A stretch of DNA of 10,232 nucleotides. Source: Campylobacteraceae bacterium (GTDB taxonomy: Bacteria; Campylobacterota; Campylobacteria; Campylobacterales; Campylobacteraceae). Made by a program: the position numbers and the translations under genes. Below, in pieces: positions 1 to 8,695 of the stretch. Each line of letters starts with the position of its first letter. The first letter of the stretch is position 1. The stretch spans positions 1 to 10,232 of the forward strand of contig JAITEH010000144.1 in NCBI GenBank assembly GCA_031282125.1, read 5' to 3'. A model generated the notes under the pieces. That model was not told the origin of the DNA. It worked only from the letters and a program-made list of their open reading frames with translations, and ran no database searches.

Positions 1-1619
1 CTCTCATCTTCCAAAAGTGCGGCTATGAGCAGTTCTAAAGGTTTTTTCATACCCTCCAAGAAAATCTCCGCTTCTTGCATGGCGCTTAAAAGTATATTTT
101 CTATATCTTGCGCGGTGGGGAGCATTCTGTCGCCCATCGCATATTTCTCGACCATTTGGGTTGCTAATTGTCTGGCTTTATTTAAATCTTCACTTGAGTT
201 AGAATAGACTTCATTAAAATATATTTTCGAAGCGGCGATGCCTGCGAATGAGACTTTAATCTTTGCCATGAGTTCCGTGCGGGATTCTATCTCTTTGTCT
301 ATCTCTTTTGTGAAATCCTCGACTAAGCCTATCTTGTCGAAATTTATCTCAAACCAGTAAGCGCAAAGAGCTTTTGCTGCCTGATATACCGCTTGTATGT
401 TTTTCTCTTTTTCGGAGTATCGTACAAGCCTTTTTTTGCCAAGCAACACTTTATCGCGCACAGCTAAAAAATCCTCTGCTTCTACCGTTTTACTCTCTCT
501 TCTTAAAGCATTTATCGCAGCTTCATTTACAAGTGTAGAGAGCGCCGCGCCGCTGAAGCCAACGCTCATCTTGGCGATATCAGATATATTGACATTATGC
601 TTTTTATCTGCCAGATACGTGTCTATTATCTTTTCTCTATCATGCAAATCAGGCAGCGAGACAAAGATACGCCTGTCAAATCTTCCAGACCTCAAGAGCG
701 CCTCGTCTATCATCTCCAAACGATTTGTGGCGGCTATAACTATGACGCCAGAATTATCCTCAAAACCGTCCATTTCCGTCAAAAGTTGATTTAACGTAGC
801 CTCTCTCTCATCGCTTCTCATGCCGCCGCGCGCTTTGCCGACCGCATCAATCTCATCTATAAATACGATTGAGGGCGCGTTTGATTTTGCCGTAGAGAAA
901 AGCTCCCTTACCCTTTTTGCCCCCATGCCGACATATATCTGCACAAAACCAGCTCCGCTTTGATAAAAAAACGGCACGTTAGCCTCTCCAGCGACCGCTT
1001 TTGCTATCATCGTTTTGCCCACCCCAGGAGGTCCTACCAGCAAAACTCCGCGCGGAAGTTTGACATTCATCTTTTGATAAATAGACGGGTTTTTTAGAAA
1101 ATCAACAATCTCGAAAAGCTCCTCTTTTACGCTTTTTATCCCCGCTACGTCGGAAAATTTTATTTTTGAAACGGACGGCAAAATCCTAACTGCGTGCGTG
1201 GTATCCGTTTCTATAGCTATATTGTTGAAGTTTGCTTGGTTTTGCTTGTTTTGTATATTTTTTTTCTCCATTTTTTGATAATAATAGAGAGCAAAAAGTG
1301 CAAGAATAAAAAACGCAAAAGTCAAAAAGAGTTCTGCGAAATTACTCTCTTTTTTTACATCTATCGGCGCAATGAGCAAAAGACGCCCTATGTCTATGCC
1401 GTCTTTTGCTATGCTGTAAACTCCCGAATTTGTATATAGGATAACTTCGTCACCGTATATTTTGGCCTCTTTTATTTGATCTTTGGCGATTAACGTATCG
1501 TAAAATCCCATGTCTATCGCTTTTGGCGAGCTTTTGACAAATATGTAACCCACAAGCATCGCTAAAATACAAAACAACATCACTAAAATCTGCAATTTAC
1601 TCGGTTTAAAAAGCTGCAT
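1..1619 (-). CDS. FtsH-like membrane AAA+ protein with degenerate protease site (3' end outside window)
   Basis: The frame is open from ATG at 1619 to the window edge, giving 539 residues without the C-terminus. The layout is that of FtsH: membrane segments at about 9-28 and 95-114 around a short periplasmic part, then an AAA+ domain with Walker A GPPGVGKT (196-203), pore loop IYVG (228-231), Walker B IVFIDEID (251-258), sensor ATNR (297-300) and arginine fingers in SGRFDR (R313, R316). The ATPase is therefore predicted active. Where FtsH has HEAGH, this protein has YQAAK (412-416). The third zinc ligand, Asp, survives at D478 (SEDL for the usual SNDL). No histidine occurs after residue 341, so the protease is predicted inactive. 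The distance from the degenerate site to D478 is about 15 residues shorter than in E. coli FtsH as I recall it. The start overlaps mtaB by 14 bases and follows a GAGGG ribosome site. A separate catalytic FtsH is expected elsewhere in the genome. Family placement is sure; the role is unknown. Confidence 0.93.
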   Translation of the reverse strand, partial: MQLFKPSKLQILVMLFCILAMLVGYIFVKSSPKAIDMGFYDTLIAKDQIKEAKIYGDEVILYTNSGVYSIAKDGIDIGRLLLIAPIDVKKESNFAELFLTFAFFILALFALYYYQKMEKKNIQNKQNQANFNNIAIETDTTHAVRILPSVSKIKFSDVAGIKSVKEELFEIVDFLKNPSIYQKMNVKLPRGVLLVGPPGVGKTMIAKAVAGEANVPFFYQSGAGFVQIYVGMGAKRVRELFSTAKSNAPSIVFIDEIDAVGKARGGMRSDEREATLNQLLTEMDGFEDNSGVIVIAATNRLEMIDEALLRSGRFDRRIFVSLPDLHDREKIIDTYLADKKHNVNISDIAKMSVGFSGAALSTLVNEAAINALRRESKTVEAEDFLAVRDKVLLGKKRLVRYSEKEKNIQAVYQAAKALCAYWFEINFDKIGLVEDFTKEIDKEIESRTELMAKIKVSFAGIAASKIYFNEVYSNSSEDLNKARQLATQMVEKYAMGDRMLPTAQDIENILLSAMQEAEIFLEGMKKPLELLIAALLEDE

Positions 1620-2862
1620 AATTTCCCTCTTTTTTTGCTTCATAATCGTCAATAACTATCCATTTTCCAGCCAAATCGTCCCCAGAATCAATAAAAATCC
1701 TATTGTAAAACTGGTCAAATCCCGTATAAAAACCGTCCTTTTTCTCTTCTACCAATACCTGCAAATCAATCTTTTTTTGTCTAAAAATAAAATTATTCTC
1801 TTTTATTATATTTTGAAGTTCCTTTAATCTGCTTTTTGCGGTATTACCGTCAACCGTTTGCTTCATGGAAGCTGAGAGCGTGCCGTCTCTTTTTGAGTAG
1901 CAAAATGCATGCAGATGCGTTAAGGGAAATTTTTTGAAATTAATAAGTGCGTTTTGCCAAATCTCCATGCTCTCCCCCGGATGTCCTACTATAAAATCCG
2001 TTCCAAGAGCAAATCCCAAAGATGAGAGTTCCAAGAAAAGCTCCAAATCTCTTTTTGCGCTGTTTCTGCGCCTCATGATTTTAAGCATTTCGTCGTTTGT
2101 ATGCTGAAGCGCGATATGCAGGTGTTTCTCAAGCCACGGTTCTTTCAATACCTCTTTAAAACTCTCGTCAATCTGTACAGGTTCGATACTGCCCATGCGA
2201 ACTCTTTTGACTCCGTCCATAGCGCCTATTTTTTGGAGCAATTTCCCAAGCGACGTATCGGTATCTTTGCCGTAACTTCCTATATTTGTCCCCGTGAGGA
2301 CAAACTCGCTAAAGCCGTTTTGCAAGAGTATTTTCCCCTGTTCAAGTATCTTCTCTTCGCTTTGGCTTCTTGCTTTGCCTCTTGCATGAGGAATGATACA
2401 GTAACTGCAAGAAAAGTTACAGCCTTCTTGTATTTTGATGAAAGCTTTGCTTTTGTCATGGTAATTTGAGACTATACTCTCATCAACATGCGTCAAAATG
2501 CCAATCTCTTTAAAAGGCTCTTTTGAAAAAAGCAGTCTATTGATATTGCGCTTTTCTGAGTGCCCCAAGACTCCAAAGACTCTATTTTGAGCGAAGAGTT
2601 CGCTGCCGCGCGTATCGGCGCCGCATCCTGCGAAAATTACTTTTTTACCGTCTTTATTTTGCTTTGATATGTAATTCCTAACGCCGCTGTCCGCGCCGTT
2701 TGTTACTGTGCATGAATTGACTATGATGATATCGGCAAACAGTTCGCTGGTCGTTACTTCAAAGTCTTTAAGCTCTCCTATCATCATCTGCGTGTCGTAG
2801 ATATTTGTCCGACAGCCGAATGTTTTGAAAAATACTTTGGATTTTGTCAAAGGCTCACTCAC
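1606..2862 (-). CDS. mtaB: tRNA N6-threonylcarbamoyladenosine-37 methylthiotransferase MtaB
   Basis: This is a cytoplasmic radical-SAM enzyme of 418 residues that adds a methylthio group to t6A37 to form ms2t6A next to the anticodon of tRNAs reading ANN codons. Three cysteines of the N-terminal UPF0004 domain (C17 in FGCRTN, C51 in NSCTVTN, C80 in AGCGAD) should bind one 4Fe-4S cluster. The radical-SAM triad CNFSCSYC (C148, C152, C155) binds the second. The last 60 or so residues fit a TRAM RNA-binding domain. The start is GTG at 2862, because an in-frame TGA lies just upstream and the first internal ATG (residue 26) would remove C17. A TTG at residue 5 is a weaker alternative. The gene begins 8 bases inside the end of the MscS-type gene and ends 14 bases inside the FtsH-like gene, so coupled translation is likely. 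MtaB is favoured over MiaB and RimO by the FGCRTN and NSCTVTN motifs and the overall length. Confidence 0.93.
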   Translation of the reverse strand: MSEPLTKSKVFFKTFGCRTNIYDTQMMIGELKDFEVTTSELFADIIIVNSCTVTNGADSGVRNYISKQNKDGKKVIFAGCGADTRGSELFAQNRVFGVLGHSEKRNINRLLFSKEPFKEIGILTHVDESIVSNYHDKSKAFIKIQEGCNFSCSYCIIPHARGKARSQSEEKILEQGKILLQNGFSEFVLTGTNIGSYGKDTDTSLGKLLQKIGAMDGVKRVRMGSIEPVQIDESFKEVLKEPWLEKHLHIALQHTNDEMLKIMRRRNSAKRDLELFLELSSLGFALGTDFIVGHPGESMEIWQNALINFKKFPLTHLHAFCYSKRDGTLSASMKQTVDGNTAKSRLKELQNIIKENNFIFRQKKIDLQVLVEEKKDGFYTGFDQFYNRIFIDSGDDLAGKWIVIDDYEAKKEGNYAAF

Positions 2863-4453
2863 TCACTTCCCCAATCTCTGGAGAGTATTTGACTTTAGAA
2901 GCTTGCCTTAAATTCAGCGTTTGGGTAGGATAAGCTATCACTATATCCTCTTCTTTGTTGATGGCGTCTATGATTTCGCCGCTTAGCGTACTTCTAAGAG
3001 CAAGAGCGGCATAAGAGTTCGTCATGTACCACACATGTATGGTAAGTCCGTGCGGTTCTATAAAAGAGAAAATCTTAGGTTCGACGTTGGTATTTTTGAG
3101 GTTGTATTTTTGTCTTAATTGATTTAACTGTTTTCTTGCTATCTCGGTATAGCCTTTTGAGTATTTTTTTGTAATCTCTTTGATGATATACATGGCTTTT
3201 TTGTAGTTCGAATCAAACGATATAGTCAGATATATACCGTCCCATACGGTCTTTAGCGTCTCATGAGTGTAGTTTGATATGAGATTTGTAAAGATAAAAT
3301 TGTTGGGTATAAATATGACTCTGCCAGCACGCTTGTTTTCAAGATATGTAGTCAAGGTTACATCTTCCAAAATGGTCATTCTCATTAAGGATATATCGAC
3401 TATATCGCCAACGTATGAGAGTCCGTCTTGGTGAACTTTGACTCTGTCTCCCACGCTGAAACTGCGCCCGAATGTTATAACGCTCCAGCCGAGTATATTC
3501 ATAAACATATCTTTCATGGCAATCGCGATACCAGCAGACGCAAAACCCAAAACGGCGACAAGATAGGTCATATTCTCGATATATGCAAACAGCAAAATCA
3601 AAATGATAAGCGTTATGTTGGTGATATTTATCACTTTATTGATGATGTAACTTCTCTCGTTTGCCGACATGAGGCGTTTTGAAATAAGTTTCAGCAAAAA
3701 AGAGATAAGTATAATCGAAACGATAATAGTAAAGATAAACAGCGTGCGTTTTGTCTCGTCTTCTATAGCGTTGGAGGCGCGCGTAACGGCTTCATTTATC
3801 TTTCTTTCGTAGATGGAAGCAGACGTCAAAACTATATCGTAAGCGGAGTTAAACTCTCTTATGAGAGCTTTATTACTCTCCTGCAAAACAGTGTAAGAGT
3901 CGCTGCTGTCAATCTCTATAATACGCTCAAGTATCTCGTCTTTTTCATGTAGGTTGTTTATCAAAATCTCCAAATCATGAGAGAGTTTGGTGTATCCTTC
4001 CAAATCCTGCCTAATCTTTTTGATATACGAAAATCCCGAAAATATAGCAAAAGGATTGCTTATAGAAGGTATCGGCGGAACGTCGGGGGATTTCAAAAGT
4101 CCAGAAAACGGAGCATTTTGAAATTCGCTGAGTTGCTCTATCTGGCTTTCCAAAACGTCGCGTCTTCTCTCCATGTCGCTAAGTTTTGCCAAAGAGTCTT
4201 TGTCGGTTTTTGTGCGGATTTTCTTTATATCTTTCACTACCGACTCAAATTCTGCCTGTTTTGTTTTGTAGATATTGTAATTTTCGTGTCTTGCAAGCCA
4301 GATGTTATTTCTGCTTGCGTCGTCGATGACTTGAAGTTTTAGCTTATAATCAGCCAATAACTGTTTTTGAGTCAAATACTCATTTTGCACCGACTGATTT
4401 ATATCCGCAGCAAGCAAATTTACCAAAAAAATCAAAGCTAAAAACAGTCTCAT
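2855..4453 (-). CDS. MscS-family mechanosensitive channel with extended periplasmic N-terminus
   Basis: This 532-residue protein belongs to the small-conductance mechanosensitive channel family, which releases solutes during hypo-osmotic shock. Residues 1-16 form a signal peptide ending in LLAA. Residues 20-230 are a charged, mostly helical region with coiled-coil character and a proline-rich break (PDVPPIPSISNP, about 123-134), predicted periplasmic. Membrane segments follow at about 238-256, 278-294 and 298-318. The last is the pore helix, rich in Gly and Ala (VLGFASAGIAIAMKD), as in MscS TM3. The beta domain follows with FGRSFSVGDRVKV and the family IPN signature (VIFIPNNF), then an alpha/beta C-terminal domain to about 510. 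It is nearly twice the length of E. coli MscS, mainly because of the N-terminal extension, so gating may involve periplasmic contacts. The ATG overlaps the aroB stop as ATGA. The ion selectivity cannot be read from the sequence. Confidence 0.9.
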   Translation of the reverse strand: MRLFLALIFLVNLLAADINQSVQNEYLTQKQLLADYKLKLQVIDDASRNNIWLARHENYNIYKTKQAEFESVVKDIKKIRTKTDKDSLAKLSDMERRRDVLESQIEQLSEFQNAPFSGLLKSPDVPPIPSISNPFAIFSGFSYIKKIRQDLEGYTKLSHDLEILINNLHEKDEILERIIEIDSSDSYTVLQESNKALIREFNSAYDIVLTSASIYERKINEAVTRASNAIEDETKRTLFIFTIIVSIILISFLLKLISKRLMSANERSYIINKVINITNITLIILILLFAYIENMTYLVAVLGFASAGIAIAMKDMFMNILGWSVITFGRSFSVGDRVKVHQDGLSYVGDIVDISLMRMTILEDVTLTTYLENKRAGRVIFIPNNFIFTNLISNYTHETLKTVWDGIYLTISFDSNYKKAMYIIKEITKKYSKGYTEIARKQLNQLRQKYNLKNTNVEPKIFSFIEPHGLTIHVWYMTNSYAALALRSTLSGEIIDAINKEEDIVIAYPTQTLNLRQASKVKYSPEIGEVSE

Positions 4454-5490
4454 CGGCTAAAAGCTCCCAAACTTTTTTTTACTATCTTCTCTTCCACGTC
4501 GTCTCTTATGACAAAATCTCCTATTTTGTTTGGCAAAATAAACGTTATTTTGGAGTTATTGCTCTTTTTGTCAAGGAAAAACGAGTCATAAAAGCTGTCG
4601 ATATCTTCTATATTATATCTTGTCGGAAGAGAGAATTTTTGCAATGTTTTTTCTATCCTAAGAGCCTCGTTTTTGTCCAAAAGTCCCAAATTGACAGCTA
4701 ATTCGTTTGCCATGACTATGCCAAAAGCCACCGCTTCGCCGTGCAAATACTCGCTGTAATGAGTCTTTTGCTCTATCACATGCGCAAACGTATGACCGTA
4801 ATTTAAAACGGCTCTTATGCCGCTCTCTTTCTCATCTTTGGCTACGACGTCGGCTTTTATCTTCACACACTTTGCTATCACATCTTTTAGATTTGTTTCA
4901 TCATTTAAGTCTATATCTTCAAGACGATAATAAAACTCTTTGTCAAACATTACCGCCATTTTTATTATCTCGGCAACTCCAGCGTTAAATTCTCTTTTTG
5001 GAAGCGTTTTCAAAAATCCGTTTTCGCAGTAAACGGCGCGCGGCTGATGAAAAGTGCCTATTAGGTTTTTGCCAAAATCGCTATTTACGCCCGTTTTTCC
5101 GCCCACACTTGCGTCCACTTGCGCCAAAAGCGTTGTCGGAACTTGGATAAAATCTATGCCTCTTTGATAAATAGACGCCGCAAATCCCGTCATATCTCCC
5201 ACAACGCCCCCGCCAAAAGCTATAAGCGTGGATTTTCTGTCTAATTTGAATTTGAAAAGCTCGTTTAGTATATACTCTATGGTTTGCAGGTTTTTGTACT
5301 TTTCGCCGTCTTTGATGATAACTTCATGAAGCTCTTTTGCTTTTACTCTTTTTTTGATGCTTTCAAGATGAAGCTTGGCTATCGTCTCATTTGTTATAAT
5401 GGCAGCTTTGCCTGCGAGCTTTATCTCTTTGATTTCATCGATAAAAACGTCATAGCCTAAAGCCGCGTCGAACTTTATCTCTATTTTCAT
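4450..5490 (-). CDS. aroB: 3-dehydroquinate synthase
   Basis: AroB converts DAHP to 3-dehydroquinate, the second step of the shikimate pathway to aromatic amino acids and folate, using NAD+ and a divalent metal. The protein has 346 residues, normal for the family. The signature region is intact: AFGGGVVGDMTGF (91-103), the Q-V-P-T-T-L-L-A-Q-V-D block (116-126) and SVGGKTGVN (128-136). The metal ligands expected in AroB are present as E174 (AGVAEIIKM), H233 (YGHTFAH) and H250 (LHGEAVAFG). The start at 5490 is supported by an AGGAG ribosome site (5495-5499) four bases upstream. It lies 46 bases downstream of the TrkA-like gene, and this gap holds its own candidate -10. Its TGA overlaps the ATG of the MscS-type gene. 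Presence of aroB indicates aromatic amino acid biosynthesis; there is no metabolic link to its neighbours, which suggests the grouping is historical or regulatory. Confidence 0.97.
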   Translation of the reverse strand: MKIEIKFDAALGYDVFIDEIKEIKLAGKAAIITNETIAKLHLESIKKRVKAKELHEVIIKDGEKYKNLQTIEYILNELFKFKLDRKSTLIAFGGGVVGDMTGFAASIYQRGIDFIQVPTTLLAQVDASVGGKTGVNSDFGKNLIGTFHQPRAVYCENGFLKTLPKREFNAGVAEIIKMAVMFDKEFYYRLEDIDLNDETNLKDVIAKCVKIKADVVAKDEKESGIRAVLNYGHTFAHVIEQKTHYSEYLHGEAVAFGIVMANELAVNLGLLDKNEALRIEKTLQKFSLPTRYNIEDIDSFYDSFFLDKKSNNSKITFILPNKIGDFVIRDDVEEKIVKKSLGAFSR

Positions 5491-5536: not shown

Positions 5537-6940
5537 TTACTCCAATATCGGCAAAAAAAGCTGACATTTATTATCCAGCAAAAAATAGACGCGATTTAAA
5601 TCTTCGGACAGAATAGATGCTATTTTTGATTTCATGAAGGATTCGTAAAACGGCACAAATTGCAGTATATTCTCCTCTTTTTTGAGTTTAAATATAGGAT
5701 TTTGGTCGCTGTTTTTGATGATATCTATCTGTTTTCCGTAAAGTTTTGCGATATTTTCGAAATGCTCGGCAAGCTCTTGGTTTTCAATTTCTGGGTCAAA
5801 ATCATAAAACTGCACTTTCAAATCAAGCTGTGAAGAGAGGTCAAATATAACCGAAGAGTGCTTTTCGACATCGTCTGCGTTGCCGCCGAAAACTATGCCG
5901 TTTTTTATATCTTGGAACTTACTGCCGCCTATTTTAAGTATCGGCGCTTGGGAGTTGAAAAGCATTTTTATATTAGCTTTGAAAAAAAGTTTATCCACTA
6001 CGCAAAGCCCTATATTCAGGTGATTTACATCGTCTAGATAGATATTGTCGGACAGCGGATTGTAGTAATCCACCGTGATATCTATGTCATTGGATGAGAG
6101 GTTTTTTATATAATTAAACGCATGCGAATAAGTAGGGTTTACCACTTTAATATAGAGCTTTTTGGAGTTTAACCTCTCATGCAGCATGAGCGTATTTGCA
6201 AGCAGCGCTTCTATTCTTTTGGCGCCCATATTGTTCATATCTATGAAGCAGTAGATGTTTGAGCCAAACGGCTGGGGGAATTGCCCAAGCTCTCTTTTGA
6301 TACTTTTGTACACGTCTTGCAGTACATCGGGAGCGCCCACGATAAGCAGGTTGTCGTTTGGCTGTATCATGATATTTGGTTTTGGCAAAAGAAGTGTATT
6401 GTTTCGATAGAGCGCCGCTATATTCCATTTTTTCTGCTCGATACTGCCCAGATGCCTATACACGTAAGAGCTTCCCACGGGCACTTGCACGTCCATAACT
6501 TCGCCCGTTACAAGTCCTATATTTTGCGCAAATATCGGCGTATTTGGCACAAAATCCGCAAGGCGGAAAGCTGTAATTTTGCGCGAATTTACTATCTTAA
6601 GATACTTATCGTCAAACTCAAGCCCCCATTTATCGACAAGATAAATCGGTATTTTTTTCTCAAACTGCCTGATTACTTTGTAAGAGCCTACGGCGTCCAC
6701 CTTTTTACTTACCGCTATCATAACTTGATAATAGTCTTTGTTGATGATGCTTGTCATCTTTTCAAAACTTGTCGGGTCGAAGGAGTGGATTTTGAAGTTT
6801 TCGGGAAATATTATATTATGTAATGTTTTTTTTCTATAATAGACGATGGTATATTCATTGTTGTCGCTCGCAACGCTGACAACTCTTTCTAAAAAATGTT
6901 TTGCTAAAATACCGTCAGCTATGATTAGGACTTTTTTCAT
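5537..6940 (-). CDS. TrkA/RCK-like putative ion-transport regulatory protein
   Basis: This soluble protein of 467 residues has no signal peptide or membrane segment. Residues 1-120 look like a Rossmann TrkA-N domain (MKKVLIIADGILAKHFL), but the glycine motif is degenerate (A8-x-G10-x-x-A13 instead of G-x-G-x-x-G) and no acidic residue follows the second strand, so NAD binding is doubtful. Residues about 140-217 fit an RCK/TrkA-C ligand-binding domain: GEVMDVQVPVGSSY, a short hydrophobic strand, then IQPNDNLLIVGAPDVL. Residues 227-467 form another alternating alpha/beta domain that faintly resembles a universal-stress-protein fold (GIVFGGNADDVEKH), which is inference. RCK proteins normally gate a potassium channel or transporter, but no such partner is encoded in this window other than the MscS-type channel. 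ATG at 6940 has a GGAG site five bases upstream and heads the operon. From memory, H. pylori and C. jejuni have a homologue at this place; its function is not known to me. Confidence 0.75.
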   Translation of the reverse strand: MKKVLIIADGILAKHFLERVVSVASDNNEYTIVYYRKKTLHNIIFPENFKIHSFDPTSFEKMTSIINKDYYQVMIAVSKKVDAVGSYKVIRQFEKKIPIYLVDKWGLEFDDKYLKIVNSRKITAFRLADFVPNTPIFAQNIGLVTGEVMDVQVPVGSSYVYRHLGSIEQKKWNIAALYRNNTLLLPKPNIMIQPNDNLLIVGAPDVLQDVYKSIKRELGQFPQPFGSNIYCFIDMNNMGAKRIEALLANTLMLHERLNSKKLYIKVVNPTYSHAFNYIKNLSSNDIDITVDYYNPLSDNIYLDDVNHLNIGLCVVDKLFFKANIKMLFNSQAPILKIGGSKFQDIKNGIVFGGNADDVEKHSSVIFDLSSQLDLKVQFYDFDPEIENQELAEHFENIAKLYGKQIDIIKNSDQNPIFKLKKEENILQFVPFYESFMKSKIASILSEDLNRVYFLLDNKCQLFLPILE

Positions 6941-6953
6941 ACATTCTCCATAA

Positions 6954-8695
<1,742 letters not shown>

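Follow-up and report, generated by a model that had tools for sequence, protein, structure and literature searches.

The window analysed here is the whole stretch of contig JAITEH010000144.1 from a Campylobacteraceae bacterium (assembly GCA_031282125.1), with a length of 10,232 nucleotides. At its left end lies the gene of an FtsH-like membrane AAA+ protein in which the zinc-protease motif HEXXH is replaced. This protein is referred to as the pseudoprotease. Its frame begins with an ATG at position 1619, is open throughout and is cut by the contig end (Table 1). The only His residues are His142, His326 and His341, in agreement with an earlier note on this DNA, which saw none from residue 342 to residue 539. 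The close relative P0002 stops 15 residues past the window edge without any further His; a zinc ligand outside the window, which the note had considered, is therefore unlikely. The Pfam profiles AAA, AAA_lid_3 and Peptidase_M41 match with 158, 47 and 42 bits, respectively. The NCBIfam model TIGR01241 gives 432.5 bits (cut-off 600) for the window copy, which is about 15 C-terminal residues short.

Table 1. Features of the pseudoprotease gene and of the genes preceding it (positions in the window)
Feature	Position	Strand	Basis or conservation
Pseudoprotease, FtsH-like membrane AAA+ protein	3..1619	-	539 codons present, about 15 C-terminal residues past the contig end
Transmembrane helix 1 (residues 10-28)	1536..1592	-	hydropathy
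Segment between the helices (residues 29-93), presumably periplasmic	1341..1535	-	hydropathy
Transmembrane helix 2 (residues 94-112)	1284..1340	-	hydropathy
AAA+ ATPase domain with lid (residues 147-385)	465..1181	-	Pfam AAA and AAA_lid_3
Walker A, GPPGVGKT	1011..1034	-	K and T in 70/70
Pore loop, IYVGMG (FtsH: MFVGVG)	921..938	-	Tyr 69/70, Phe 1/70; Phe in 29/29 aligned FtsH
Walker B, VFIDEIDA	843..866	-	D and E in 70/70
Sensor 1, AATNR	720..734	-	Asn in 70/70
Second region of homology, two arginine fingers	669..698	-	both Arg in 70/70
Degenerate M41 domain, truncated at the contig edge (residues 395-539)	3..437	-	Pfam M41 match starts at profile position 51, behind HEXXH; a relative's model matches FtsH over the domain
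YQAAK (residues 412-416) replacing HEXXH	372..386	-	sequence alignment
Asp478, aligned with the third zinc ligand of FtsH	186..188	-	D 67, E 3 of 70
mtaB (tRNA t6A methylthiotransferase)	1606..2862	-	TIGR01579 above cut-off
MscS-type channel protein	2855..4453	-	PF00924
aroB	4450..5490	-	TIGR01357 above cut-off
Protein with TrkA_C as its only domain above the Pfam cut-off, precedes aroB	5537..6940	-	relative in 34/69 fetched loci

Orthologues were taken from one genome per genus code, with two for code g19. The resulting 69 genomes cover 68 genus codes and 13 family codes within one order. Together with the window protein they form the set of 70 proteins compared throughout. All sampled genomes of the phylum are related to the window genome at the level of the same order or closer. 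A protein search gave a match in 397 of 397 sampled genomes, a count that mixes true FtsH with the pseudoprotease. Profile A1, made from ten pseudoprotease C-terminal domains, finds two matches in each of the 69 genomes. Short-type frames (467–674 residues) and long-type frames (619–714 residues; both ranges count any stretch ahead of the start codon) co-occur in all 69. The short-type locus was fetched for every genome and the long-type locus for 31 of the 69. HEXXH is kept in all 31 fetched long-type FtsH. Twenty-nine of these were aligned (HEXXH in 29/29); the two others, which read GSPG, were left out by a motif filter and both contain HESGH. A longer FtsH frame with HESGH also occurs on another contig of the window's genome, which is partially assembled (0.98 Mb). 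The genes of the pseudoprotease and of FtsH are located apart in the genomes.

HEXXH is absent from all 70 proteins of the set. The position of the first His is occupied by Tyr in every one of them, and that of the second His by Lys in 68, Arg in one and Gln in one. The Glu is never kept and is replaced by Gln (65), Asn (2), Leu (1), Ile (1) or Lys (1). The Asp at the third ligand position cannot make the FtsH zinc site alone, without the two His. Further elements of the protease are lost. In FtsH, an edge strand with the sequence (A/G)ALGY lines the active site. It reads AALGY in 24, GALGY in four and SAAGY in one of the 29 aligned FtsH; four of its five columns are gaps in all 70 pseudoproteases, and so are all three columns of the YSE loop. 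The spacing from the motif to the Asp is 48–63 residues compared with 73–74 in FtsH, and 53–112 residues follow the Asp in the 69 complete orthologues compared with 116–167 in FtsH. The Helicobacter pylori protein P0127 has no match to Pfam M41 at E 0.001. Furthermore, no column of the M41-derived domain holds His or Cys in at least 25% of the 70 sequences, which speaks against alternative zinc ligands, and 16 of the 70 domains are wholly without His. A strain-specific mutation, a frameshift or a sequencing error is ruled out by the same kind of change in the 69 orthologues.

The earlier note had reported YQAAK at 372–386 with all three catalytic positions changed, in an open frame without frameshift or decay. 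Both observations hold, and the loss is much wider than one strain. The orthologue alignment that the note proposed gave loss of HEXXH in 70 of 70 proteins with the ATPase motifs kept in all of them, and HEXXH in all 31 of the other FtsH fetched. Among Campylobacterota loci with names, which include Campylobacter showae and Campylobacter concisus, 30 of 31 have YQ..K and no HEXXH; the 31st is cut by its contig. YQSAK is present in an H. pylori cluster representative (7240 member sequences) and in each of the five other Helicobacter proteins inspected out of 120 listed. The close database relatives are metagenome-assembled genomes of Campylobacteraceae. They carry the names "AAA family ATPase", "ATP-dependent metalloprotease FtsH" or "ATP-dependent metallopeptidase FtsH/Yme1/Tma family protein". 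Labels of the last kind, as a metallopeptidase, are frequent in databases; they are misleading, as the note had stated, and overcount proteases in Campylobacterota genomes.

The note had also described a complete FtsH layout. This is correct for Walker A and B, sensor 1, the arginine fingers and the aromatic pore loop, but not for the edge strand and the YSE loop. By hydropathy, two hydrophobic stretches are found in 67 of the 70 proteins, three in two and one in one. The segment between the helices comprises 64–94 residues in 48 of the 69 orthologues and only 3–13 residues in the other 21, whereas 29 measured FtsH have 78–96 residues here. This shrinkage suggests that the indispensable part of the pseudoprotease faces the cytosol. 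The short segment occurs at loci L165, L168–L170, L186, L193–L203, L205–L207, L209 and L210, i.e. in family codes f4, f5 and f6 and in one of two f9 genomes. A structure model of a relative, based on 60 sequences, supersedes a version based on 15 sequences (mean pLDDT, the predicted local distance difference test, of 69). The predicted fold of the cytosolic region is FtsH-like, with the M41-derived domain included. Among the best 60 of 266 distinct sequences of solved structures matched at E 1e-20, none is named as the protein described here; these 60 are p97/Cdc48-type proteins, FtsH and related AAA ATPases.

The former active site is among the best conserved parts of the M41-derived domain. 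Nine of its 145 columns present in the window are at least 90% identical among the 70 proteins, and four of these nine are the former zinc or catalytic positions Tyr412 (100%), Lys416 (97%), Asp478 (96%) and Gln413 (93%). The other 141 columns have a mean identity of 44%. If placed at random, four sites would fall into the top nine with a probability of 7e-6, which is a rough guide since three of the four adjoin on one helix and are not independent. Thus, the zinc site looks rebuilt, as Tyr-Gln-Lys with the old Asp ligand, rather than decayed. Lys416 and Asp478 each occupy a position that binds zinc in FtsH; judged by FtsH geometry, they would pair with each other and lock the pocket. The ratio of non-synonymous to synonymous substitution rates (dN/dS) was compared within the window's lineage; its values are rough, with synonymous sites near saturation. 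For the M41-derived domain it is 0.047–0.107 in eight of ten comparisons and not computable in two, and for the AAA domain it is 0.030–0.052 in all ten. By this measure, purifying selection acts on the dead domain.

A tree of the AAA region alone was calculated by a quick method from 38 of the 70 pseudoproteases, 29 Campylobacterota FtsH and 22 other FtsH; its root was not inferred. All pseudoproteases lie on one side of a branch with a length of 0.77 and full support (100) in the Shimodaira–Hasegawa-like approximate likelihood ratio test (SH-aLRT). Judged by these sequences, they are one clade separate from active FtsH. The unrooted tree fits a duplication at the phylum's base as well as it fits an older split. 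The end branches of FtsH and pseudoprotease are 0.069 and 5.6 in genus representative G345, and 0.15 and 1.29 in G293. The copy of G345 (locus L211) is encoded by the frame 5555–7099 on the minus strand and is 34% identical to the window protein. Its checked ATPase residues are intact, its genus code falls within the window's family, and mtaB, mscS and aroB are still upstream.

In the window, the genes of the 1606–5490 cluster and the pseudoprotease gene follow each other head-to-tail, with overlaps of 4 nucleotides (aroB/mscS), 8 nucleotides (mscS/mtaB) and 14 nucleotides (mtaB/pseudoprotease). These overlaps suggest translational coupling of the four genes. Conservation beside mtaB, as claimed in the note, is borne out: the pseudoprotease is present in all 69 genomes, its gene is preceded by mtaB on the same strand in 62 of 69 loci, and in 60 of these 62 the open frame starts before the mtaB stop. 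MscS-type genes and aroB are each found in 55 of 69 fetched loci; the flanks of the loci are limited, so that absence from a fetched locus is weak evidence. A BioV-type gene (pimeloyl-ACP methyl ester esterase) directly follows the pseudoprotease gene in 51 of 69 loci, at a site beyond the end of the window, and its L181 copy passes the BioV cut-off. A MogA/MoaB-like gene, assigned by reading, comes after the pseudoprotease gene in 33 of 69 loci. The cluster gives no direct clue to function because its genes share no pathway.

At the level of sequence, the pseudoprotease combines a two-helix anchor and complete ATPase machinery with the loss of the zinc-binding and catalytic triad and of the edge strand, in a single clade that accompanies a normal-looking FtsH in 69 of 69 genomes. 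These features somewhat favor an FtsH-derived, non-proteolytic membrane AAA+ motor, an unfoldase or dislocase analogous to plastid FtsHi. It would act as an ATP-driven hexamer on the inner membrane. The pore loops would pull membrane or membrane-proximal proteins, which would be unfolded or extracted and would then pass or refold without being cut. The old protease ring would be retained as structure. The conserved Tyr-Gln-x-x-Lys would refill the zinc pocket, with Lys416 placed to pair with Asp478 instead of zinc. The parts of this mechanism differ in strength. ATP-driven threading via the Tyr pore loop is well supported by its conservation, and it is strongly suggested that the substrates are not cleaved. 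Their origin in the membrane and their later fate are guesses that take FtsHi and membrane dislocases as a model. More tentatively, and with somewhat less than even confidence, the protein may represent an ancient, phylum-wide membrane translocation motor. In this ancestry from FtsH, the protease would have been deleted and the pocket rebuilt as a Tyr-Gln-Lys-Asp site with its own job as a structural lock, a peptide grip or a ligand site.

Three observations weigh against the reading as a non-proteolytic motor. The M41-derived domain evolves fast, with a mean identity of 0.325 compared with 0.648 for FtsH of the same 29 genomes; the mean pairwise identities of the AAA domain are 0.640 and 0.819. 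The copy at L211 is very divergent, and its position in the tree is unsure. Finally, the third-ligand Asp kept in 67 of 70 proteins is readable as a remnant of metal binding. The interpretation of the earlier note is supported by the sequence comparison, with unfoldase, dislocase and FtsH partner all as candidates. If the ancient translocation motor is real, two FtsH machines would work side by side, one destroying membrane proteins and the other only moving them. With one bacterial copy per genome in every Campylobacterota genus sampled, this would be a simple system for FtsH motor function without proteolysis.

A less likely, though serious, alternative is that the pseudoprotease joins active FtsH in mixed hexamers, as an obligate or a facultative subunit, and there would tune substrate choice or dilute proteolysis like the mixed rings of organelles. 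Both frames are present in all 69 genomes and the inter-subunit ATPase residues are kept. The evolutionary distances of the two proteins also correlate when mtaB or aroB is controlled for (partial Spearman 0.35–0.58, 21–27 genomes). This apparent signal of co-evolution depends on the control genes: with mtaB, mscS and aroB all controlled, what remains is 0.14 in 22 genomes or 0.25 in 19. Furthermore, the end branches of FtsH are short in G345 and G293, where the pseudoprotease branch is very long, the inter-helix segment is reduced in 21 of 69 pseudoproteases but in none of the 29 FtsH measured, and the two genes lie apart.

It is rather improbable that the pseudoprotease is dedicated to the assembly or quality control of the MscS-type neighbor or of another single client. 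The MscS-type gene belongs to the cluster in most loci, usually with mtaB in between, and its distance correlation with the pseudoprotease is the strongest among the neighbors (partial 0.72 for 22 genomes, 0.56 for 19 genomes and 0.52 for 52 loci). With trk and bioV as further controls, however, the partial value is lower, at 0.33 in 23 loci and 0.26 in 20, and the correlation is explained equally well by shared lineage rates of fast membrane proteins. Seventeen genomes were searched for mscS at E 1e-20, namely 14 without mscS in the fetched locus and three with it, one of these at a contig end. No relative was found at this threshold in four of the 17 (G061, G105, G041 and G261), all of which keep the pseudoprotease. 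On these four genomes, an obligate partnership with mscS is rejected.

A cryptic protease, with zinc on other residues or non-metal catalysis at the Tyr-Gln-Lys-Asp site, is very improbable. The four positions are conserved as an active site would be and the third-ligand Asp is kept, but the domain offers no His or Cys column at 25%, lacks any His in 16 proteins and has lost the edge strand in all 70. A functionless, decaying FtsH duplicate would account for the extreme copy at L211 and for the rapid divergence seen in the M41 region and at the N-terminus, but given the presence of the gene in 69 of 69 genus representatives, the invariant ATPase residues and, within the window's lineage, dN/dS values far below 1, its probability is negligible.

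Outside Campylobacterota, profile A1 at E 1e-22 gave no match in 299 genomes of the phylum of an alphaproteobacterium and in 98 genomes of the phylum of a cyanobacterium, and three matches, all with HEXXH, in 199 genomes of the Ruminococcus phylum; this cut-off would recover 51 of the 69 pseudoproteases, so that scattered or divergent cases may be missed. In 22 further genomes outside the phylum the best match reaches 75.6 bits, a score that exceeds the 64.3 bits of the best long-type Campylobacterota FtsH and is comparable to those of the weaker pseudoproteases (36–82 bits). HEXXH is kept in both of the two best matches from these 22 genomes (L247 and L248).

No description of the Campylobacterota pseudoprotease was found in the open-licence full text of PubMed Central (PMC), a scope that leaves out supplements and subscription papers. 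The corresponding genes of H. pylori and Campylobacter jejuni are, as we take them to be, HP0286, jhp0271 and Cj1005c; the same full-text collection yielded no paper for these and related locus tags. In the accessible part of a review on C. jejuni proteases, FtsH is Cj1116c and Cj1005 gives no match (PMC9953165). Likewise, Campylobacter gives no match in the accessible part of a 2022 review on FtsH evolution (PMC9020784). A 2006 paper on epsilonproteobacterial signatures reports a one-residue insert in FtsH, and its accessible part has no match for HP0286 or Cj1005 (PMC1557499).

With bacterial FtsH (MEROPS family M41) the pseudoprotease shares the two-helix anchor, the AAA+ motifs checked, the lid, the predicted cytosolic fold and the third-ligand Asp. 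It differs by the missing HEXXH, edge strand and YSE loop, by a shorter C-terminus and by Tyr instead of Phe in the pore loop. Msp1/ATAD1, Bcs1, Bacillus subtilis YjoB and membrane AAA+ ATPases of phytoplasmas resemble it, by description only, as membrane-anchored AAA+ rings without proteolysis. To our knowledge, Msp1, Bcs1 and YjoB have no M41-derived domain.

According to the accessible parts of the literature, inactive FtsH proteins are mostly known from plastids, where several are essential and involved in protein import (PMC11266112, PMC9020784, PMC8197885). FtsHi is said there to be restricted to the plant chloroplast, although green algae, a presumed case in Prochlorococcus and FtsH/FtsHi paralogs of Firmicutes are also mentioned (PMC8197885). 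In plants the motif reads TEVGV in FtsHi1, NEAAM in FtsHi2, REAAV in FtsHi4 and WAAGR in FtsHi5, and FtsHi3 has none (Table 2 of PMC11266112). The Glu is thus kept in three of the four plant motifs and never in the Campylobacterota protein, which has Lys at the place of the second His in 68 of 70 cases. Both are FtsH-type AAA+ proteins with a destroyed HEXXH alongside active FtsH, and the ATPase is intact in the pseudoprotease. Foldseek matches of the relative's model include chains of 8xku, 8xqw and 8xks, noted under the plastid FtsHi/Ycf2-FtsHi import motor. By analogy, the Ycf2-FtsHi import motor may serve as a ready model for a non-proteolytic motor of this kind.
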